Source: Sphingomonas sp. M1-B02
GTDB taxonomy: Bacteria; Pseudomonadota; Alphaproteobacteria; Sphingomonadales; Sphingomonadaceae
DNA: 64,000 bases
NCBI RefSeq assembly: GCF_026167525.1
Contig: NZ_CP110679.1
Coordinates: 496,001-560,000, forward strand
Direction of reading: 5' to 3'
In this document: positions 45,612 through 59,750 of the stretch, one piece after another
Layout of the letters: each line of letters starts with the position of its first letter
Position numbering within the stretch: position 1 is the stretch's first letter
Program-made: the position numbers and the translations under genes
The notes under the pieces: model-generated
Database searches by the model: none
Seen by the model: the letters and a program-made list of their open reading frames with translations, nothing else
What the model was told of the DNA's origin: nothing

Positions 45612-45622
45612 TTACCCACGCT

Positions 45623-45704
45623 CGTCATCCCCGCGAAGGCGGGGATCCAGCGTTGCGAGCCGCTCCCTTTGTGACTCTGGATCCCCGCCTTCGCGGGGAT
45701 GACG
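45623..45704. repeat. Palindromic repeat, copy A
   Basis: Two 28-bp arms (45623-45650 and 45677-45704), each with the core CCCCGCGAAGGCGGGG, are perfect inverted copies around a 26-bp loop. First of six related elements between here and 58.3 kb. It lies between the phosphotransferase and SDR genes. Confidence 0.9.
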
Positions 45705-45726
45705 ATGGTAGGACGAAGGGCGCGTG

Positions 45727-50006: not shown

Positions 50007-50110
50007 CCGTCATCCCCGCGAAAGCGGGGACCCATCTCCGGCGCGCGCCGCGCGCAGAACAGTGGGTGACTTCTCCCCGAGATGGGCCCCCGCTTTCGCG
50101 GGGGTGACGG
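50007..50110. repeat. Palindromic repeat, copy B
   Basis: Left arm 50007-50041 and right arm 50075-50110 have the inverted cores CCCCGCGAAAGCGGGG and CCCCCGCTTTCGCGGGGG followed by GATGGGCCC-type ends. It fills the gap between tesB and the next acyl-CoA dehydrogenase and ends 8 bp before the tesB start. Confidence 0.9.
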
Positions 50111-51240: not shown

Positions 51241-51330
51241 CTCATCCCCGCGGAAGCGGGGACCCATCTCCTGCGGTCTCGCCCAGCTCCACGGTCGGGA
51301 GATGGGCCCCCGCTTTCGAGGGGGTGACGG
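51241..51330. repeat. Palindromic repeat, copy C
   Basis: Left arm 51241-51271 (core CCCCGCGGAAGCGGGG) and right arm 51297-51330 (core CCCCCGCTTTCGAGGGGG) are inverted, imperfect. The right arm touches the stop of the next dehydrogenase (51331). Confidence 0.88.
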
Positions 51331-52482
51331 TCAGCTTGGTAAATCCAAAATCCGCTTCGCGATGATGTTGAGCTGGATCTCGCTGGTCCCGCCTTCGATC
51401 GAATTTGCCTTGGTGCGCAGCCACGCGCGCGCCGCCGCGCCGTGGATCGAGGCTTCGCTCTCCCATTCGAGCGCATCGCTGCCGCCGGCGGCCATCAGCA
51501 GTTCGTGGCGGATCTTGTTGAGCTCGGTGCCGTAATATTTCATCATCGAGGGTTGGGCGGGATGGGCGCGGCCTGCCTTGAGCTCGTCGATGAAGCGTTC
51601 GGACATCGCCGCGAACGCCCGGGCGCGGACCTGGAACAGAGCGATCTGGCCGCGCAGGATCGGATCGACTCCCTTGCGCGCCGCTTCGACCAGCGGATCG
51701 ATCCCGCCGGCGCCCATGTTCGAGATCATCTCGCGCTCATGGCCGAGGAGGTATTTGGCGACGTCCCAGCCCTTGTTCAGCTCGCCGAGCAAATTGGACT
51801 TGGGGACCTTCACATCGTCGAAAAAGGTCTCGCAAAAGGGCGAATTGCCACTGATCAGCAGGATCGGCTTGGTGCTAACGCCCTCGCTGGCCATGTCGAA
51901 CAGCAGGAAGCTGATGCCGCCCTGTTTGCTCGTCTTGTCGGTGCGGACGAGGCAGAAGATCCAGTCGGCCTGATCGGCATAGCTGGTCCAGACCTTCTGG
52001 CCGTTGACGATGAAATGGTCGCCGGCATCCTCGGCGCTGGTCTGCAGGCCGGCGAGGTCGGAGCCGGCATTGGGCTCGCTATAGCCCTGGCACCAGCGGA
52101 TTTCGCCGCGGGCAATCTTTGGGAGATGCTCGAGTTTCTGTTCTTCGGTGCCGTATTTGAGCAAGGCCGGCCCGAGCATCGAGATGCCGAAGCTGTTGAG
52201 CGGATTGCGGGCGCGGATCGCAGCCATTTCCTCGCGGAGGATCTTGGTCTCGGCTGCGGAGAGCCCACCGCCGCCATATTCCTTTGGCCAATCGGGGACG
52301 GTCCAGCCGCGCGCGCCCATGCGCTCCATCCAGAGCTTCTGGTCGGGGTGGGCATAGATGGGGTTGCGGCCGCCCCAGGTGGCGTCCTTCTCGCTGCGCA
52401 GGGGCAAGCGCATGCTGGGGGGGCAATTGGCCTCGAGCCAGGCTCGGGTTTCTTGGCGGAATTGGTCGAGGTCTTGGTTCAT
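51331..52482 (-). CDS. Acyl-CoA dehydrogenase (large partner type)
   Basis: A 383-residue acyl-CoA dehydrogenase with intact WCQGYSEPNAGSDLAGLQ, VNGQKVWTSYADQADW and the C-terminal IEGGTSEIQLNIIAKRILDLPS. It is highly similar in layout to the gene at 30926-32143, so the window holds two large/small dehydrogenase pairs. The ATG at 52482 has GGGAG upstream, at the edge of repeat D. Substrate unknown. Confidence 0.93.
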   Translation of the reverse strand: MNQDLDQFRQETRAWLEANCPPSMRLPLRSEKDATWGGRNPIYAHPDQKLWMERMGARGWTVPDWPKEYGGGGLSAAETKILREEMAAIRARNPLNSFGISMLGPALLKYGTEEQKLEHLPKIARGEIRWCQGYSEPNAGSDLAGLQTSAEDAGDHFIVNGQKVWTSYADQADWIFCLVRTDKTSKQGGISFLLFDMASEGVSTKPILLISGNSPFCETFFDDVKVPKSNLLGELNKGWDVAKYLLGHEREMISNMGAGGIDPLVEAARKGVDPILRGQIALFQVRARAFAAMSERFIDELKAGRAHPAQPSMMKYYGTELNKIRHELLMAAGGSDALEWESEASIHGAAARAWLRTKANSIEGGTSEIQLNIIAKRILDLPS

Positions 52483-52492
52483 CGTACTCACT

Positions 52493-52578
52493 CCCGTCAT
52501 CCCCGCGAAGGCGGGGACCCAGAGCCAAGAGCGGCGCCGCCCGTTACCCTGGGTCCCCGCCTTCGCGGGGATGACGGG
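52493..52578. repeat. Palindromic repeat, copy D
   Basis: Two 30-bp arms (52493-52522, 52549-52578) with core CCCCGCGAAGGCGGGG are perfect inverted copies around a 26-bp loop. It lies between fadB and the acyl-CoA dehydrogenase and is closest to copy A. Confidence 0.9.
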
Positions 52579-52606
52579 TGCGGGGCGGCGCGCCTTGGCC
52601 GTGCCG

Positions 52607-54634
52607 TCAGTTGAACCGCGCGCCCTTCTCGGCCTTCTCGCGGAGCAACGGCGCTACCTTGAAACCGTGCTTCTCGAGCCCGGCGACGATCTTCTTGAGG
52701 CCCTCGGTGTCGGCCCAGAACATCGGGCCGCCGCGATAGACCGGCCAGCCATAGCCGTAGATCCAGACGACATCGATGTCCGACGCGCGCTGGGCCTTGC
52801 CTTCGGCGAGGATCAGCGCGCCTTCGTTGACCATCGGGTAGAGCGTGCGCTCGACGATTTCCTCGTCGGTGACTTCGTGCTGGACCGCGCCCGATTTCTT
52901 GCGGAAATCCTCGATGATCTCGGCGACGCGGGGGCTGTTCGAGGGCTGGCGCTTCTCATCATAGTCGTAGAAGCCTGCGCTCTTCTTCTGGCCCCAGCGG
53001 CCTTCGGCGGCGAGTGCGTCGCGGATATTCTCGATTCGGGTGGGATCGCGGTGCCAGCCGATGTCGACCCCGGCGAGGTCGCTCATCTGGAACGGGCCCA
53101 TCGGCATGCCGAAGTCGACATGGACGCGATCGATCTGTTCGGGGGTGGCGCCTTCCATCAGCAGCTTCATCGCCTCGACCTGACGCGGCATCAGCATGCG
53201 ATTGCCGATGAAGCCGTGGCAGACCCCGGCGACGACCGCGACCTTCTTGATCTTCTTGGCGACCGCCATCGCGGTGGCGAGCACGTCGTCCGCCGTCTTG
53301 TCGCCGCGGACGACTTCGAGCAGCTTCATAACATTGGCGGGCGAGAAAAAGTGGAGGCCGAGAACATCTTGCGGGCGCGAGGTGGATGCGGCGATTTCGT
53401 TGACGTCGAGATAGGAAGTATTGGAGGCGAGGATCGCGCCGGGCTTGGCGATCTTGTCGAGCCGGCCGAAAATGTCCTTCTTGACCGACATTTCTTCATA
53501 GACCGCCTCGATGATCAGATCGCAGTCGCCGAGCGCGTCGAAATCGAGCGTCGGGTTGAGCAGCCCCATCGCCTGATCGACCTGCTCGGGCTTGATCCGA
53601 CCCTTGGCGGCGCTCGCTTCGTAATTCTTGCGCATCGTGCCGGCGCCGCGATCGAGCGCCTCCTGCTGCATCTCGACGATGGTCACCGGGATGCCCGCCG
53701 AGAGGAAGTTCATGCTGATGCCGCCGCCCATCGTGCCGGCGCCGATCACGCCGACGCGCTTGATCGGGCGGAGCGCGATGTCATCGGCGACACCGTCGAT
53801 CTTGCCGGCCTTGCGCTCGGCGAAGAAGATGTGGCGCTGGGCGGCGGACTGGACGCTCATGATCAGCTTCATGAAACCCTGGCGCTCGAGCGCGACGCCT
53901 TCCGCAAAGGGCTTACCCATGCTGTTTTCGATCACCGAGATGATCTCGGCGGGGGCCTCAAAGCCACGGAAGCGCTTGCCGTTGGTCTTGCGGAAGGTTT
54001 CGAACACCGACGGATCGGCAGTGATAGACTTGGCCGACGCGCGCGGGAGCGGGCGGGCGGTGGCGACTTCGCGGGCGAAGGCGACGGCGTCGTCGAGCAG
54101 GCTGTCTTCGCCGGCGAGGCGATCGACGAGGCCGGCCTGCTGGGCTTTTGCGGCGGAGACGGGATCGCCCTTGGCGGCGAGTTCCAGCGCGAATTCGACG
54201 CCGGCGACGCGCGGCAGGCGCTGGGTGCCGCCCGCGCCGGGGAGGATGCCGAGCTTCACTTCGGGCAGGCCGAGCTTGGCCGAGGGGACGGCGATGCGAT
54301 AATGGGCGCCGAGCGCGACTTCGCAGCCGCCGCCCAGCGCGGTGCCGTGGATCGCGGCGATGACGGGCTTGTCGAGCGCCTCGATCATGTCGACCAAGGT
54401 GGGGAGCGCGGGCTCCTGCATCGGTTTGCCGAATTCGGTGATGTCGGCGCCGGCGAAGAAAGTCTTGCCGGCGCAGACGATGACGACCGCCTGGATGCTC
54501 TCATCGTCGCGCGCCTGCTCGATGCCGGCCTGGAGGCCCTGGCGGACCGCGGCGGAGAGGGCGTTCACCGGCGGGCTGTCCGAGGTGAGGATCAGGACTT
54601 CGCCCTGGCGGCTGGTGGTGATGGGGGAGGTCAT
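52607..54634 (-). CDS. fadB: 3-hydroxyacyl-CoA dehydrogenase / enoyl-CoA hydratase
   Basis: A 675-residue bifunctional beta-oxidation enzyme. The N-terminal crotonase half (about 1-190) has the oxyanion and catalytic blocks [21 protein letters not shown] and [21 protein letters not shown]. The dehydrogenase half starts at about 293 with [12 protein letters not shown] (NAD site) and has [16 protein letters not shown] with catalytic His and Glu. It catalyses hydration and oxidation of enoyl-CoA. Same strand as tesB and the dehydrogenases. Confidence 0.94.
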
Positions 54635-54651
54635 GTTCGGTCTCCAATTAG

Positions 54652-54680
54652 TGGTTCACGCAAAGGCGCGAAGGCGCAAA
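54652..54680. repeat. Short dispersed-repeat fragment
   Basis: GGTTCACGCAAAGGCGCGAA and the following GGCGCAAAG resemble the low-complexity stretch at 21446-21477 (GTTCGCGCAGGGGCGCAGAG). Both may be remnants of one sphingomonad intergenic repeat; it lies between fadB and the serine hydrolase. Confidence 0.35.
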
Positions 54681-54700
54681 GATCGATTGCTGGTGAAGGG

Positions 54701-55918
54701 TCATGTCAGGGCCGAATAGATCAGCGTCTTGAGCTCGCGGCGGACGGGGTAGAGCATCGATGGCGAGAATTGAGTCATGAAGACCATCGAGACACGTTCG
54801 ACCGGATCGACCAAGAAGGCGGTCGAGAACATGCCGCCCCAGTAGAACTCGCCTGCCGAGCCTGGCATGAGCGATTTGGCGACGTCCATCGTGACCGCAA
54901 AGCCGAGGCCGAAGCCGGTGCCTGCATTGGTTGCCTCGCTGAACAAGGCGCGCGACATTGCGGTGAGATCCTGGCCGCCGGGAAGGTGGTTCATCGTCAT
55001 CAGCTCGATCGTCTTCGGGCTGACCAGACGCGTGCCCCCGAACGTGCCCTTGTTGAGCAGCATCGTGTTGAAGCGGTGATAGTCGAGCGCAGTCGAGACG
55101 AGCCCACCGCCGCCAGAGACCAGTCGGGGCGCCTTAGCCCATGCAGAATTGGCGCCGCGATCGTAGAGGGCAGGTTTGCCATCGACGAGCGCCCAGCAAT
55201 CGGCGAGGCGAGCGATCTTTTCGGCGGGCACCTGGAAGAAGGTGTCTTGCATGCCGACGGGCGCAAAGATCCGCTCGGCGAAGAAGCGATCGAGCATCGT
55301 GTCCGATAGGCGCTGGACCACGGCACCGAGCACGTCGGTGGACACCGAATAATTCCATTCGGCGCCGGGCGAGAATTCGAGCGGGAGCTTGGCAAGGGCG
55401 GCAACGAATTCGTCGAGGGTCAGGCCGTTGTACCAGCTCTCGAGCTTCGACTCGCGATAGGCGGCGTCGACATTGGTGCGGTTCTGGAAGCTGTAGGTGA
55501 GGCCCGAGGTATGGCGGAGCAGATCGACCATCCGCATCGGCTCGGCGGTGGCCTTGGTGACGAACGAAACGCCGCCGCCGCCGCCGGCATAGACGCCGAC
55601 GCCCTTGAACTCCGGGAGGACGTGGTGGACCGGCGTGTCGAGCCCGACCTTGCCCTCCTCGACCAACATCATGAAGGCGAGGCTGGTGACCGGCTTGGTC
55701 ATCGAGGCGATGCGGAACAGGGTGGTGTCGTCGACAGGGGCGCCGTCTTCGCGCGCCGGGCCCTGGTGCGAGAAATGGACGATCTCGCCTTCGCGGGCGA
55801 TGAGCAATTGGGCGTGGGGGAAGCGACCCGAATCGAGATAGCGCTCCTTCACGAACGCATCGATCCGCGCCAGCCGCGCGGCATCGAATCCGTAGCGTCC
55901 GGGCTGGTGCATTTGCAT
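54701..55918 (-). CDS. Serine hydrolase (beta-lactamase family, cytosolic)
   Basis: A 405-residue member of the class C beta-lactamase/EstB superfamily without signal peptide. The nucleophile block is ASMTKPVTSLA (SxxK) and the tyrosine block WNYSVSTDVLG (YSV); WGGMFST stands for the KTG. Such cytosolic members are usually esterases or amidases. It starts MQMHQPGRYGFD and diverges from the acyl-CoA synthetase. An esterase that releases the acid later activated by the synthetase is plausible. Confidence 0.88.
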   Translation of the reverse strand: MQMHQPGRYGFDAARLARIDAFVKERYLDSGRFPHAQLLIAREGEIVHFSHQGPAREDGAPVDDTTLFRIASMTKPVTSLAFMMLVEEGKVGLDTPVHHVLPEFKGVGVYAGGGGGVSFVTKATAEPMRMVDLLRHTSGLTYSFQNRTNVDAAYRESKLESWYNGLTLDEFVAALAKLPLEFSPGAEWNYSVSTDVLGAVVQRLSDTMLDRFFAERIFAPVGMQDTFFQVPAEKIARLADCWALVDGKPALYDRGANSAWAKAPRLVSGGGGLVSTALDYHRFNTMLLNKGTFGGTRLVSPKTIELMTMNHLPGGQDLTAMSRALFSEATNAGTGFGLGFAVTMDVAKSLMPGSAGEFYWGGMFSTAFLVDPVERVSMVFMTQFSPSMLYPVRRELKTLIYSALT

Positions 55919-57833: not shown

Positions 57834-57945
57834 CGTCACCCCCGCGAAAGCGGGGGCCCATCTCCGGTGCTCGCCAAGCGCAAAACAGCCGTTGTGACTC
57901 GCGGCAACTCCCGGGAGATGGGCCCCCGTTGTCGCAGGGGTGACG
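57834..57945. repeat. Palindromic repeat, copy E
   Basis: Left arm 57834-57867 (core CCCCCGCGAAAGCGGGGG) and right arm 57911-57945 (core CCCCCGTTGTCGCAGGGG) are inverted, imperfect. The right arm ends 9 bp before the stop of the GIY-YIG gene. Confidence 0.88.
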
Positions 57946-57954
57946 TTTTTTTTG

Positions 57955-58242
57955 TTATTTGTTCAGGTCGAACCACAGATCGCGCCAATCCGGGTTCAGG
58001 GCTTCGATCAGTTCGATCTTCCAGGCCCGGTTCCATTTCTTGATGCGCTTCTCGCGGACGATCGCGTTCTCGATTTCGTCGTGATGCTCGACATAGACGA
58101 GGCGAACAGTCGCGTGCTTCGCGGCAAACTTGCTGCCGGTGTTTTCGCGGTGCTGGGTGATGCGTTAGGCGATCGTGGCGGTTACGCCGGTGTATAGCGT
58201 GCCGTGCTTGCGGTTGGTGACGATGTAGACGCAGCCGCCCAC
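57955..58242 (-). pseudogene. GIY-YIG nuclease-domain gene with an in-frame stop
   Basis: The reading VGGCVYIVTNRKHGTLYTGVTATIA, stop, RITQHRENTGSKFAAKHA continues to NPDWRDLWFDLNK, together a complete small GIY-YIG endonuclease (about 95 residues) with the GIY-like YIV...YTG strands and the conserved REKRIKKWNRAWK. A TAA at 58165-58167, one change from CAA, interrupts it, so the gene is dead, mis-sequenced or read through. The GTG start (58242) overlaps the glpK stop (TAGTG). Repeat arms lie on both sides in the same orientation. Confidence 0.85.
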
Positions 58243-59750
58243 TACTGCTTCGCTTGAGGCTCGTGCGGGAGATGGGCCCCAGCTTTCGCGGGGGTGACGA
58301 TCGAGTGGACGGCTTGCGTCCAACCTGCCAACCGAGCGTGGCGCCGGCCTACATCCAATTTCGGCTCGAAGGTAACCGCGGGTCCGCGCATCTTGGCGGC
58401 CTCCTCCAGCCCGCTGAACAGGCCGCAGCCGACCCCCGCCAGCATCGCCGCCCCCAATGCAGTCGTCTCGGCGAAGTCGGGCCGGTCGACGGGTACAGCC
58501 AGTACGTCGGCCAAATCCTGCGCCATCCAGTCGTTGGCGACCATGCCGCCGTCGATTCGCAGGCGGGCCCAGTCGGCGCCGTCGGCGGCGAAGGCGGTCT
58601 TGAGGTCGTGGCTCTGGTGCGCCATCGCCTCTAGCGCGGCGCGGATGATGTGGGCGCGGGTGCTGGCGAAGCTGAGGCCGGAAATGGCGGCGCGGGCGTC
58701 GGGCTCCCACCAGGGGGCGCCGAGACCGCTAAGCGCGGGGACGAGATAGACGCCGCCATTGTCGGGGACCGATTTCGCGATTGCCTCCGTTTCGGGGGCG
58801 GTCTCGATCAGGCCGACCGCGTCGCGGAGCCACTGGATCAGGCTGCCGGCGACGAACACCGATCCTTCGATCGCATAGGTGCGGCGGCCGTTCAGTTGCC
58901 AGAGGACGGTTGCGAGCAAGCGATGCTTGGAGGCCGGCGGGGTGGTGCCCGCGTTGGTGAGGACGAAGGCGCCGGTGCCGTAGGTGGCCTTGGTCTCGCC
59001 CTTGGCGAAGCAGGCCTGGCCGATCGTCGCGGATTGCTGATCGCCGGCGAGGCCGCAGATCGGGATTTCGCCGCCGAACAGCCGGGTTGTGCCGAAGCGG
59101 CCCGCGCAATCGACGATCTCGGGCAAGGCATCGCGAGGGGCCGAGAACATGTCGAGCAGCCCATCGCTCCAGCCGCCACTGCCGAGGCCCATCAGCAGTG
59201 TGCGCGAGGCGTTGGTGGCATCGCTGATGTGGAGCCCGCCGGTGAGCTTCCAGACCAGCCAGCTCTCGACCGTGCCGATCGCGAGGCGATCGCACGCCGC
59301 GGCGAGCTGGGGCCAATGCTCCATCGCCCAGGCGATCTTGGTCCCCGAAAAATAGGGGTCGAGCAGCAGGCCGGTGCGCGCCTGGACGCCGGGCTCCTCG
59401 CCGGCGTCGCGCAATTTCCGGCACAAGGCGGCGGTGCGGCGGTCCTGCCAGACGATCGCCGGGGCGAGCGGTTCGCCGGTCGTCTTGTCCCAGAAGACGA
59501 TCGTTTCGCGCTGGTTGGTAATGCCGATCGCGGCGATGCGATCCGCGCCGCCGGCCTTGTCGACCATCGCGATTGCGCATTCGAGCGTGCGGCGCCAGAT
59601 CTCGTTCGCGTCATGCTCGACCAGGCCGGGGCCGGGATAGTGCTGGGTGAGCTCGGCGGCGTGGCTGCCGAGACATTTGCCCGACGCCTCGAAGAGCATC
59701 GCGCGGGTGGAGGTGGTGCCTTCGTCGAGGACCAGCAGGAGTTCGCCCAT
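58242..59750 (-). CDS. glpK: Glycerol kinase with repeat-derived C-terminus
   Basis: A 502-residue FGGY kinase that phosphorylates glycerol to sn-glycerol-3-phosphate. The N-terminal DEGTTSTRAMLF, VWQDRRTAALC, YGTGAFVLTNAG and GGMVANDWMAQDLADVLAVPV match GlpK. The body ends near AGWTQAVHS; the last residues (about 484-502, VTPAKAGAHLPHEPQAKQ) are read from a repeat arm (58266-58300) and replace the normal tail. No glpF or glpD is near. Minus strand, stop overlapping the GIY-YIG start. Confidence 0.93.
   Translation of the reverse strand: MGELLLVLDEGTTSTRAMLFEASGKCLGSHAAELTQHYPGPGLVEHDANEIWRRTLECAIAMVDKAGGADRIAAIGITNQRETIVFWDKTTGEPLAPAIVWQDRRTAALCRKLRDAGEEPGVQARTGLLLDPYFSGTKIAWAMEHWPQLAAACDRLAIGTVESWLVWKLTGGLHISDATNASRTLLMGLGSGGWSDGLLDMFSAPRDALPEIVDCAGRFGTTRLFGGEIPICGLAGDQQSATIGQACFAKGETKATYGTGAFVLTNAGTTPPASKHRLLATVLWQLNGRRTYAIEGSVFVAGSLIQWLRDAVGLIETAPETEAIAKSVPDNGGVYLVPALSGLGAPWWEPDARAAISGLSFASTRAHIIRAALEAMAHQSHDLKTAFAADGADWARLRIDGGMVANDWMAQDLADVLAVPVDRPDFAETTALGAAMLAGVGCGLFSGLEEAAKMRGPAVTFEPKLDVGRRHARLAGWTQAVHSIVTPAKAGAHLPHEPQAKQ
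58266..58300. repeat. Single palindromic-repeat arm, copy F
   Basis: This is one right-type arm (GAGATGGGCCCC, then CTTTCGCGGGGGTGACGA) without a partner. It has the same orientation as the right arm of copy E, so the two arms are direct repeats around the GIY-YIG gene. It lies inside the 3' end of glpK. Confidence 0.88.

Follow-up and report, generated by a model that had tools for sequence, protein, structure and literature searches.

A 64,000-nucleotide stretch of Sphingomonas sp. M1-B02 DNA (contig NZ_CP110679.1, positions 496,001 to 560,000; hereafter the window) carries a small GIY-YIG nuclease gene enclosed by the arms of a palindromic repeat, and the locus raises the question of whether nuclease and repeat belong together. 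The arms resemble the repetitive extragenic palindromes (REPs) with a CGTC tag, which, according to the part of Di Nocera et al. (2013, PMC3733652) available to us, are found mainly in alphaproteobacteria, also in Neisseriae and other groups, and "apparently lack a dedicated transposase"; with no transposase that could be linked to them, how they spread stayed an open question in that paper. From comparison of the locus with its homologs, we conclude that small standalone GIY-YIG nucleases of one clade, here called the first clade, are probably the dedicated partner of the CGTC-tagged REPs.

Repeats around small GIY-YIG nuclease genes

The survey worked outward from nuclease genes. In the Sphingomonas sp. 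M1-B02 genome and 60 relatives, 113 small GIY-YIG loci among the matches listed were analyzed, comprising 79 of the first clade, 18 of a second clade, and 16 others; the clades were split by motif rules of our own, and a wider rule raises the second clade to 24 loci. Long UvrC-like frames were left out, as were G022:C12:600521, G029:C18:42790, G058:C5:159631 (a tandem second copy), and G010:C1:3123039. A CGTC-REP was present within ~200 bp of 66 of the 79 first-clade genes, which come from 39 related genomes, and on both sides of 44 of them, compared with 56/1446 and 0/1446 random anchors. This definition admits some untagged hairpins with a near-perfect stem; when only GTC-tagged repeats were counted, the first clade had 51/79 on either side and 32/79 on both sides. 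A motif-free test, which compared the 250 nt upstream with the 320 nt downstream in search of inverted arms (score ≥16), detected them at 51/79 first-clade, 11/18 second-clade, and 5/16 other loci and at 0/960 random placements. REP density was 4.28 per kb near the nuclease genes, compared with 0.11 per kb in the rest of these loci, and the REP loop lay at a median of 37 nt before the start and 22 nt after the stop.

Random anchors are a lenient control because they lie mostly in coding DNA; other GIY-YIG genes and glpK flanks are stricter. CGTC-REPs by the same definition were found at 0/18 second-clade genes and at 1/16 other GIY-YIG genes, the sole match being locus L108, which we read as a broken first-clade copy. 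At glpK genes lacking the unit, the 3′ flank (one side only) had a GTC-tagged CGTC-REP in 0/28 cases. Chance co-occurrence was rejected against all three comparisons.

More distant taxa were represented by the best 80 of 588 confirmed named loci, drawn from alpha-, beta-, gamma-, and deltaproteobacteria and from metagenome-assembled genomes (MAGs) with other labels. With the GTC tag required, as for the glpK flanks, a REP was found on either side of 48/80 loci versus 33/1086 controls and on both sides of 30/80 versus 0/1086; inverted arms were found at 51/80 versus 1/1086. An earlier note, made from the letters of the window alone, had proposed comparing the flanks of homologous nuclease genes with random genes, and enclosure on both sides sets the homologs apart in both samples, as does the empty glpK comparison, which supports the note's interpretation. 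Seven far-out MAG loci, whose taxon labels may be wrong, were inspected singly: tagged REPs flank L165 (Dehalococcoidia) on both sides, and those labeled Planctomycetota, Clostridiales, and FCPU426 have one on one side. Under a looser definition applied to 159 first-clade loci, a REP was present at 144/159 and on both sides of 99/159 (controls, 62/607 and 0/607). These loci represent 82 flanking contexts. A REP occurs in at least one member of 74 contexts, and in 55 at least one member is enclosed by REPs, so the pattern is not explained by shared ancestry of a few sites. A plasmid collection gave 34 matching records, of which seven were inspected by eye; the copies in A. lipoferum, S. meliloti, N. 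aromaticivorans, Shinella, and N. gonorrhoeae sit between such repeats.

Two loci deserve separate mention. In the Neisseria gonorrhoeae record (L238), a first-clade gene at 1501-1776 has CGTC-REPs near it on both sides by eye, repeats that resemble those known in Neisseria as dRS3. In genome G058, L033 has two tandem nuclease-domain copies 578 bp apart with equal scores and adjoins REPs with a CTTGA loop and a longer stem, which are outside the patterns counted.

The second clade (FWTYILRCADGSYYTGHTD...) has a repeat of another kind, CCGTTCGNCCTGAGC... (CCGTTCG), at 22/24 loci under the wider rule and on both sides at 16/24, and genomes with more second-clade genes tend to have more of these repeats (Spearman 0.60). 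The CCGTTCG repeat was found at 0/79 first-clade loci, the comparison here being with first-clade loci rather than random anchors. The two nuclease clades are therefore paired with two repeat families in a double dissociation. Within the first clade, the REP loop type follows the protein tree: it requires 12 changes across 159 tips (144 labeled) versus a minimum of 28 in 300 shuffles, and 10 changes versus a shuffle minimum of 14 when one locus per context is kept. A stem label required 37 changes on the full tree versus a shuffle minimum of 63. Thirteen second-clade-type frames (L006, L007, L012-L018, L021, L023, L029, and L035) continue as a single open frame of ~354 to 409 aa; in L006, the only one that was domain scanned, the frame joins a GIY-YIG domain to a downstream RNA methyltransferase of the TrmJ/SpoU type, and the translated repeat forms the linker.

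Repeat number was compared with gene number across the 61 genomes, with gene counts taken as the analyzed loci plus L108. First-clade genes and CGTC-REPs are correlated (Spearman 0.68; 0.62 within the genus only and 0.52 in other families), and five or more REPs are present in 36/39 genomes with the gene versus 6/22 without it. Across 240 Alphaproteobacteria genomes, the corresponding figures are 27/69 versus 8/171, and the relation of repeat number to gene presence, which the earlier note had proposed to check, is found at both scales. A RAYT (REP-associated tyrosine transposase) as the mover of these repeats was rejected: a search for the Y1 transposase domain (Y1_Tnp, PF01797) gave no match in the Sphingomonas sp. 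M1-B02 genome, and the domain is present in 10/61 genomes with no link to REP number (p = 0.16). Among the 17 genomes with at least 50 REPs, that of Sphingomonas sp. M1-B02 included, 15 have no Y1 transposase match.

Two copies on different contigs of genome G038 (L022 and L044) delimit the unit in one pair. They align over 417 bp at 90%, the block contains the CGTC arm, the gene, and the inverted arm, and similarity fades ~10 to 20 bp beyond the arms. The 98 noncoding bases between arm and start and between stop and arm differ at 5 sites, and the synonymous divergence (dS) is 0.54; arms and spacers are held more tightly than silent sites, through selection or gene conversion. In Azospirillum lipoferum 4B, sufB and sufC lie 617 bp apart, and the space is taken up by a nuclease gene between two REP doublets (REPINs). 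Of 23 matching Azospirillum records, the 12 listed are the source and 11 others; those 11 match sufB and sufC in two pieces covering 69 to 71% of the query, and in the four that were aligned the sufB-sufC gap is 55 to 129 bp and the unit is absent. The site thus exists with and without the unit, and insertion is the simpler reading.

The nuclease is under purifying selection in the tested pairs. Nine gene pairs were submitted and the eight of equal length were computed, giving a ratio of nonsynonymous to synonymous substitution rates (dN/dS) of 0.06 to 0.24 in seven pairs and no nonsynonymous change in the eighth. Residues Y8, Y19, R29, and E66 are among those invariant in 30 aligned proteins, and we take them to be the GIY tyrosine, the YIG tyrosine, and the catalytic arginine and glutamate, respectively. 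Five intact relatives match PF01541 with 46.9 to 69.1 bits (curated cut-off 22.6), and their Pfam scan gave no PF01797 match. By PF01541 and the conserved residues, the family of the window gene belongs to the GIY-YIG superfamily, with nuclease activity predicted. The nearest solved structures by sequence are UPF0213 proteins (1zg2 and 1ywl), with UvrC (1yd6) also matched, and database records name the homologs "GIY-YIG nuclease family protein," "putative endonuclease," or "excinuclease ABC subunit C." A defense system was considered and rejected, as PADLOC returned 0 matches for three intact relatives (E ≤ 0.01).

The locus in the window and its counterparts

Across 57834-58299, the order is arm L, its inverted partner R1, the minus-strand GIY-YIG gene, and arm R2, with the nuclease gene in the intergenic region between a ligase gene and glpK. 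Its features are as follows.

57834..57865, plus strand: left arm (L) of repeat E, with a CGTC tag, 8-bp stem, GAAA loop, and CCA tail; outer end of the unit.
57914..57945, minus strand: right arm (R1) of repeat E, inverted, 91% complementary to L.
57834..57945, no strand assigned: repeat E as a whole, a REPIN-like doublet of CGTC-REPs; single-stranded DNA fold −43.5 kcal/mol, z −7.5.
57955..58242, minus strand: small GIY-YIG nuclease gene, a broken copy; PF01541 domain at 58015-58236 (E 5.0e-15, 57.6 bits) with one internal TAA.
58165..58167, minus strand: in-frame TAA within the GIY-YIG domain, from the domain match and translation.
58266..58299, minus strand: repeat arm F (R2), which bounds the unit on the right and has the opposite orientation to L.

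Arm R1 lies 9 bp from the gene and the gene 23 bp from arm F, and R1 and F are direct copies with 88% identity over 34 nt; the earlier note had positions, gaps, and direct-repeat relation right. The gene is also framed by an inverted pair, since the outer stretches 57834-57888 and 58245-58299 match at 78% over 55 nt. The nuclease copy is broken, as the TAA at 58165-58167, overlooked in the earlier note, interrupts its frame. As single-stranded DNA, arm L forms a hairpin (−10.2 kcal/mol, z −4.0), R1 alone folds weakly (z 0.23), and arm F alone likewise (z −0.8). With its stop codon and the weak folding of R1 and R2, the window copy looks like an ageing, decayed version of the arm-gene-arm unit.

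In the related genome G075, the same site between ligase and glpK holds an intact ortholog (L197:3012-3296) whose arms are arranged as in the window. Among 30 glpK loci, 14 other relatives have a ligase match, and 0/14 match the nuclease query piece; in the 12 of these ligase-glpK loci that were inspected, the gene ends lie 51 to 983 bp apart (51 to 88 bp in three), and one of them (L202) contains a doublet of a different repeat. PF01541 matches four genes in the Sphingomonas sp. M1-B02 genome, three of them small. One small gene (C1:2654876-2655094) lies between two REPINs of the window's repeat family, and another (C1:2995654-2995875) is flanked by 31-nt arms of a related palindrome that are perfect inverted copies of each other; beside the fourth gene, a 661-aa frame that we read by its size as UvrC, no such repeat was found. 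The 16-mer repeat core has 10 sites in the window with at most two mismatches versus 0.74 expected, and 77 sites in the 3.6-Mb genome with at most one mismatch versus 2 for a reversed control pattern. Four further REPIN-like doublets of the family are in the window, at 45615-45712, 50007-50110, 51242-51327, and 52493-52578, the last translated within a long frame (52358-55309).

Arm F is read in frame both upstream of the nuclease gene, where the frame stays open through the arm (open reading frame 58165-58710), and as the C terminus of glpK, whose frame (58242-59750, minus strand) ends within and just beyond the arm, with last residues VTPAKAGAHL... encoded by the repeat. The earlier note had the impression that similar proteins elsewhere carry N-terminal extensions read from this repeat. 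Such extensions do exist, in the window and, by eye, in 5 of 120 homologs, the best among 1565. They look incidental because other frames are about as open: the gene's own frame runs through the upstream repeat in 37/63 loci and the other two in 32 and 48. As a functional feature, the extension was rejected for this lack of frame preference.

What the nuclease may do to the repeats

We infer that the repeats are acted on by the nuclease, which may mobilize them. The gene and its flanking arms would form one unit, with the CGTC tags usually outermost (arm-gene-inverted arm or REPIN-gene-REPIN), and the REPINs elsewhere in the genome would be its gene-less relatives. Most likely, the enzyme would recognize the hairpin or cruciform into which its own palindrome folds and nick or cut beside it, and host replication and repair would then place a copy of the element at the break. 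GIY-YIG enzymes hydrolyze DNA without a covalent enzyme-DNA intermediate; because this chemistry is hydrolytic, we favor cutting followed by repair copying over strand transfer, a break-and-copy route that would stand nearer to homing than to the strand transfer of RAYTs. That CGTC-REPs and REPINs, together with the CCGTTCG family, are propagated in this way, by small GIY-YIG nucleases cutting their own hairpins, and so constitute a second REP-propagation system that evolved independently of the HUH RAYTs, is a proposition to which we give even weight for and against.

A number of observations count against these proposals. The evidence is sequence comparison, and cleavage, binding, and movement are not among the observations; to our knowledge, GIY-YIG enzymes are not known for joining DNA strands. 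No target-site duplication came to light, and at sufB-sufC in particular no clean one was seen. The largest context clusters, of 21 and 13 loci, occupy the same place across species; because many copies share sites in this manner, movement looks rare and inheritance mostly vertical, and many copies look like old residents. No REP was found at 13/79 first-clade loci, no GTC-tagged REP at 28/79, and none by the looser definition at 15/159. Anaerolineae, Bipolaricaulota, and Kerfeldbacteria MAG loci are without a tagged REP, L165 is the only one of the seven far-out loci with both sides, and the Photobacterium and R. tumorigenes copies in the plasmid collection have no clear arms on both sides by eye. 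The earlier note had held that repeats abundant in genomes lacking the gene would refute it, and this was seen in a minority only: G045, G228, and G298 have 57, 50, and 61 CGTC-REPs with no first-clade nuclease detected, possibly because the enzyme was lost and the repeats persisted. Fewer than five pattern matches were found in 42 of the 69 gene-bearing genomes of the class, possibly because the patterns were derived from Sphingomonadales, and the copy-number correlations ignore phylogeny. With one locus per context, the stem label is marginal (25 changes versus a shuffle minimum of 26), so fine-grained matching of stem and enzyme is not established.

The chief rival explanation is that the nuclease is a hairpin processor retained by the host, which trims or resolves REP hairpins and cruciforms that stall replication, with REP spread driven by other means. 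Purifying selection, the long residence seen in the two large clusters, and the correlation of gene and repeat number would all agree with such a role, yet it gives no account of a gene boxed in by repeats, of two clades set in different repeats, of arms more conserved than synonymous sites, or of the unit at sufB-sufC, and we consider it unlikely. Less probable still is that the gene is a passenger that host recombination or a different transposase carries between REPs and that does not act on them. REPs, being repeats, can recombine, and the tandem nuclease copies in G058 fit this explanation. Against it, random anchors were never enclosed (0/1446 and 0/1086), even allowing for a survey that started from nuclease genes, whereas the nuclease is enclosed in at least 55/82 contexts, the repeat type follows the clade, and the Y1 domain is absent from 15/17 repeat-rich genomes. 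Terminators or mRNA-stabilizing hairpins around a small gene, with no mobility, would suit the foldable REPs close to the gene ends, but CGTC-REPs are missing from the glpK 3′ flanks and second-clade genes, the same repeats are dispersed genome-wide, and the unit is present or absent at sufB-sufC, making this explanation very improbable.

If small GIY-YIG nucleases do propagate their repeats, REP-type elements arose twice, with unrelated enzymes, and this would be the first GIY-YIG-driven transposon-like family that we know of in prokaryotes outside homing elements. For the spread of CGTC-REPs, a dedicated nuclease would offer a definite candidate gene together with its cognate DNA substrate; the second clade, with its other repeat, would serve as a built-in control. 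It would also supply a hypothesis of function for a common orphan protein family, the small GIY-YIG proteins.

Comparison with known systems

The window arms share with the CGTC-REPs of PMC3733652, compared by described features rather than by consensus sequence, the CGTC tag, 8-bp stem, 4- or 5-nt loop, CCA tail, and head-to-head dimers, and they fit the described stem of 8 to 9 bp and loop of 4 to 5 nt. The difference is that no associated transposase is reported in the accessible text of that paper. It examined tyrosine and other transposase genes, and hypothetical open reading frames of <120 aa were excluded from its intragenic list, so nucleases of ~100 aa may have been missed. A literature search, with preprints and most subscription papers outside its scope, found no link of GIY-YIG to bacterial REPs; the one bacterial paper that mentions both GIY-YIG and RAYT, PMC9465073, lists them as separate gene names, and the text examined of PMC12306157 and PMC4741004 has nothing on such a link. 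For the UPF0213/YhbQ-type small GIY-YIG proteins, to which the nearest structures belong, no repeat association was found in the literature searched.

GIY-YIG homing endonucleases (I-TevI-like) have the same catalytic domain and possibly the same break-and-copy logic. They differ in that no intron or interrupted host gene is seen at the window locus, and TIGR01453 gave only partial matches below threshold (20.5 and 20 bits versus a cut-off of 56.05).

The closest parallel in organization is with RAYTs, REPtrons, and REPINs, as described in the available parts of Nunvar 2010 (PMC2817692), Bertels and Rainey 2011 (PMC3116915), and Corneloup 2021 (PMC8266576). In both systems, one nuclease gene lies between two inverted REPs, enzyme and repeat covary, gene presence goes with repeat abundance, and gene-less doublets are dispersed; an autonomous element with a gene-less population has been proposed for RAYTs and REPs (PMC2817692 and PMC3116915). 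Flanking by inverted REPs is described as holding "always" for RAYTs (PMC2817692) and is found here in a majority (51/79 and 51/80). The RAYT is an HUH tyrosine transposase with GTAG-tagged repeats, whereas the enzyme here is a GIY-YIG nuclease and the tag CGTC; rayt genes evolve fast (PMC2817692), whereas the nuclease pairs here are under purifying selection. With no HUH domain and no GTAG tag, the system is not a RAYT, although three organizational hallmarks of RAYTs are present in the majority of loci. The resemblance to RAYT-REP systems drawn by the earlier note therefore holds for organization, and the chemistry would be new for such elements if the proposed mechanism is right.

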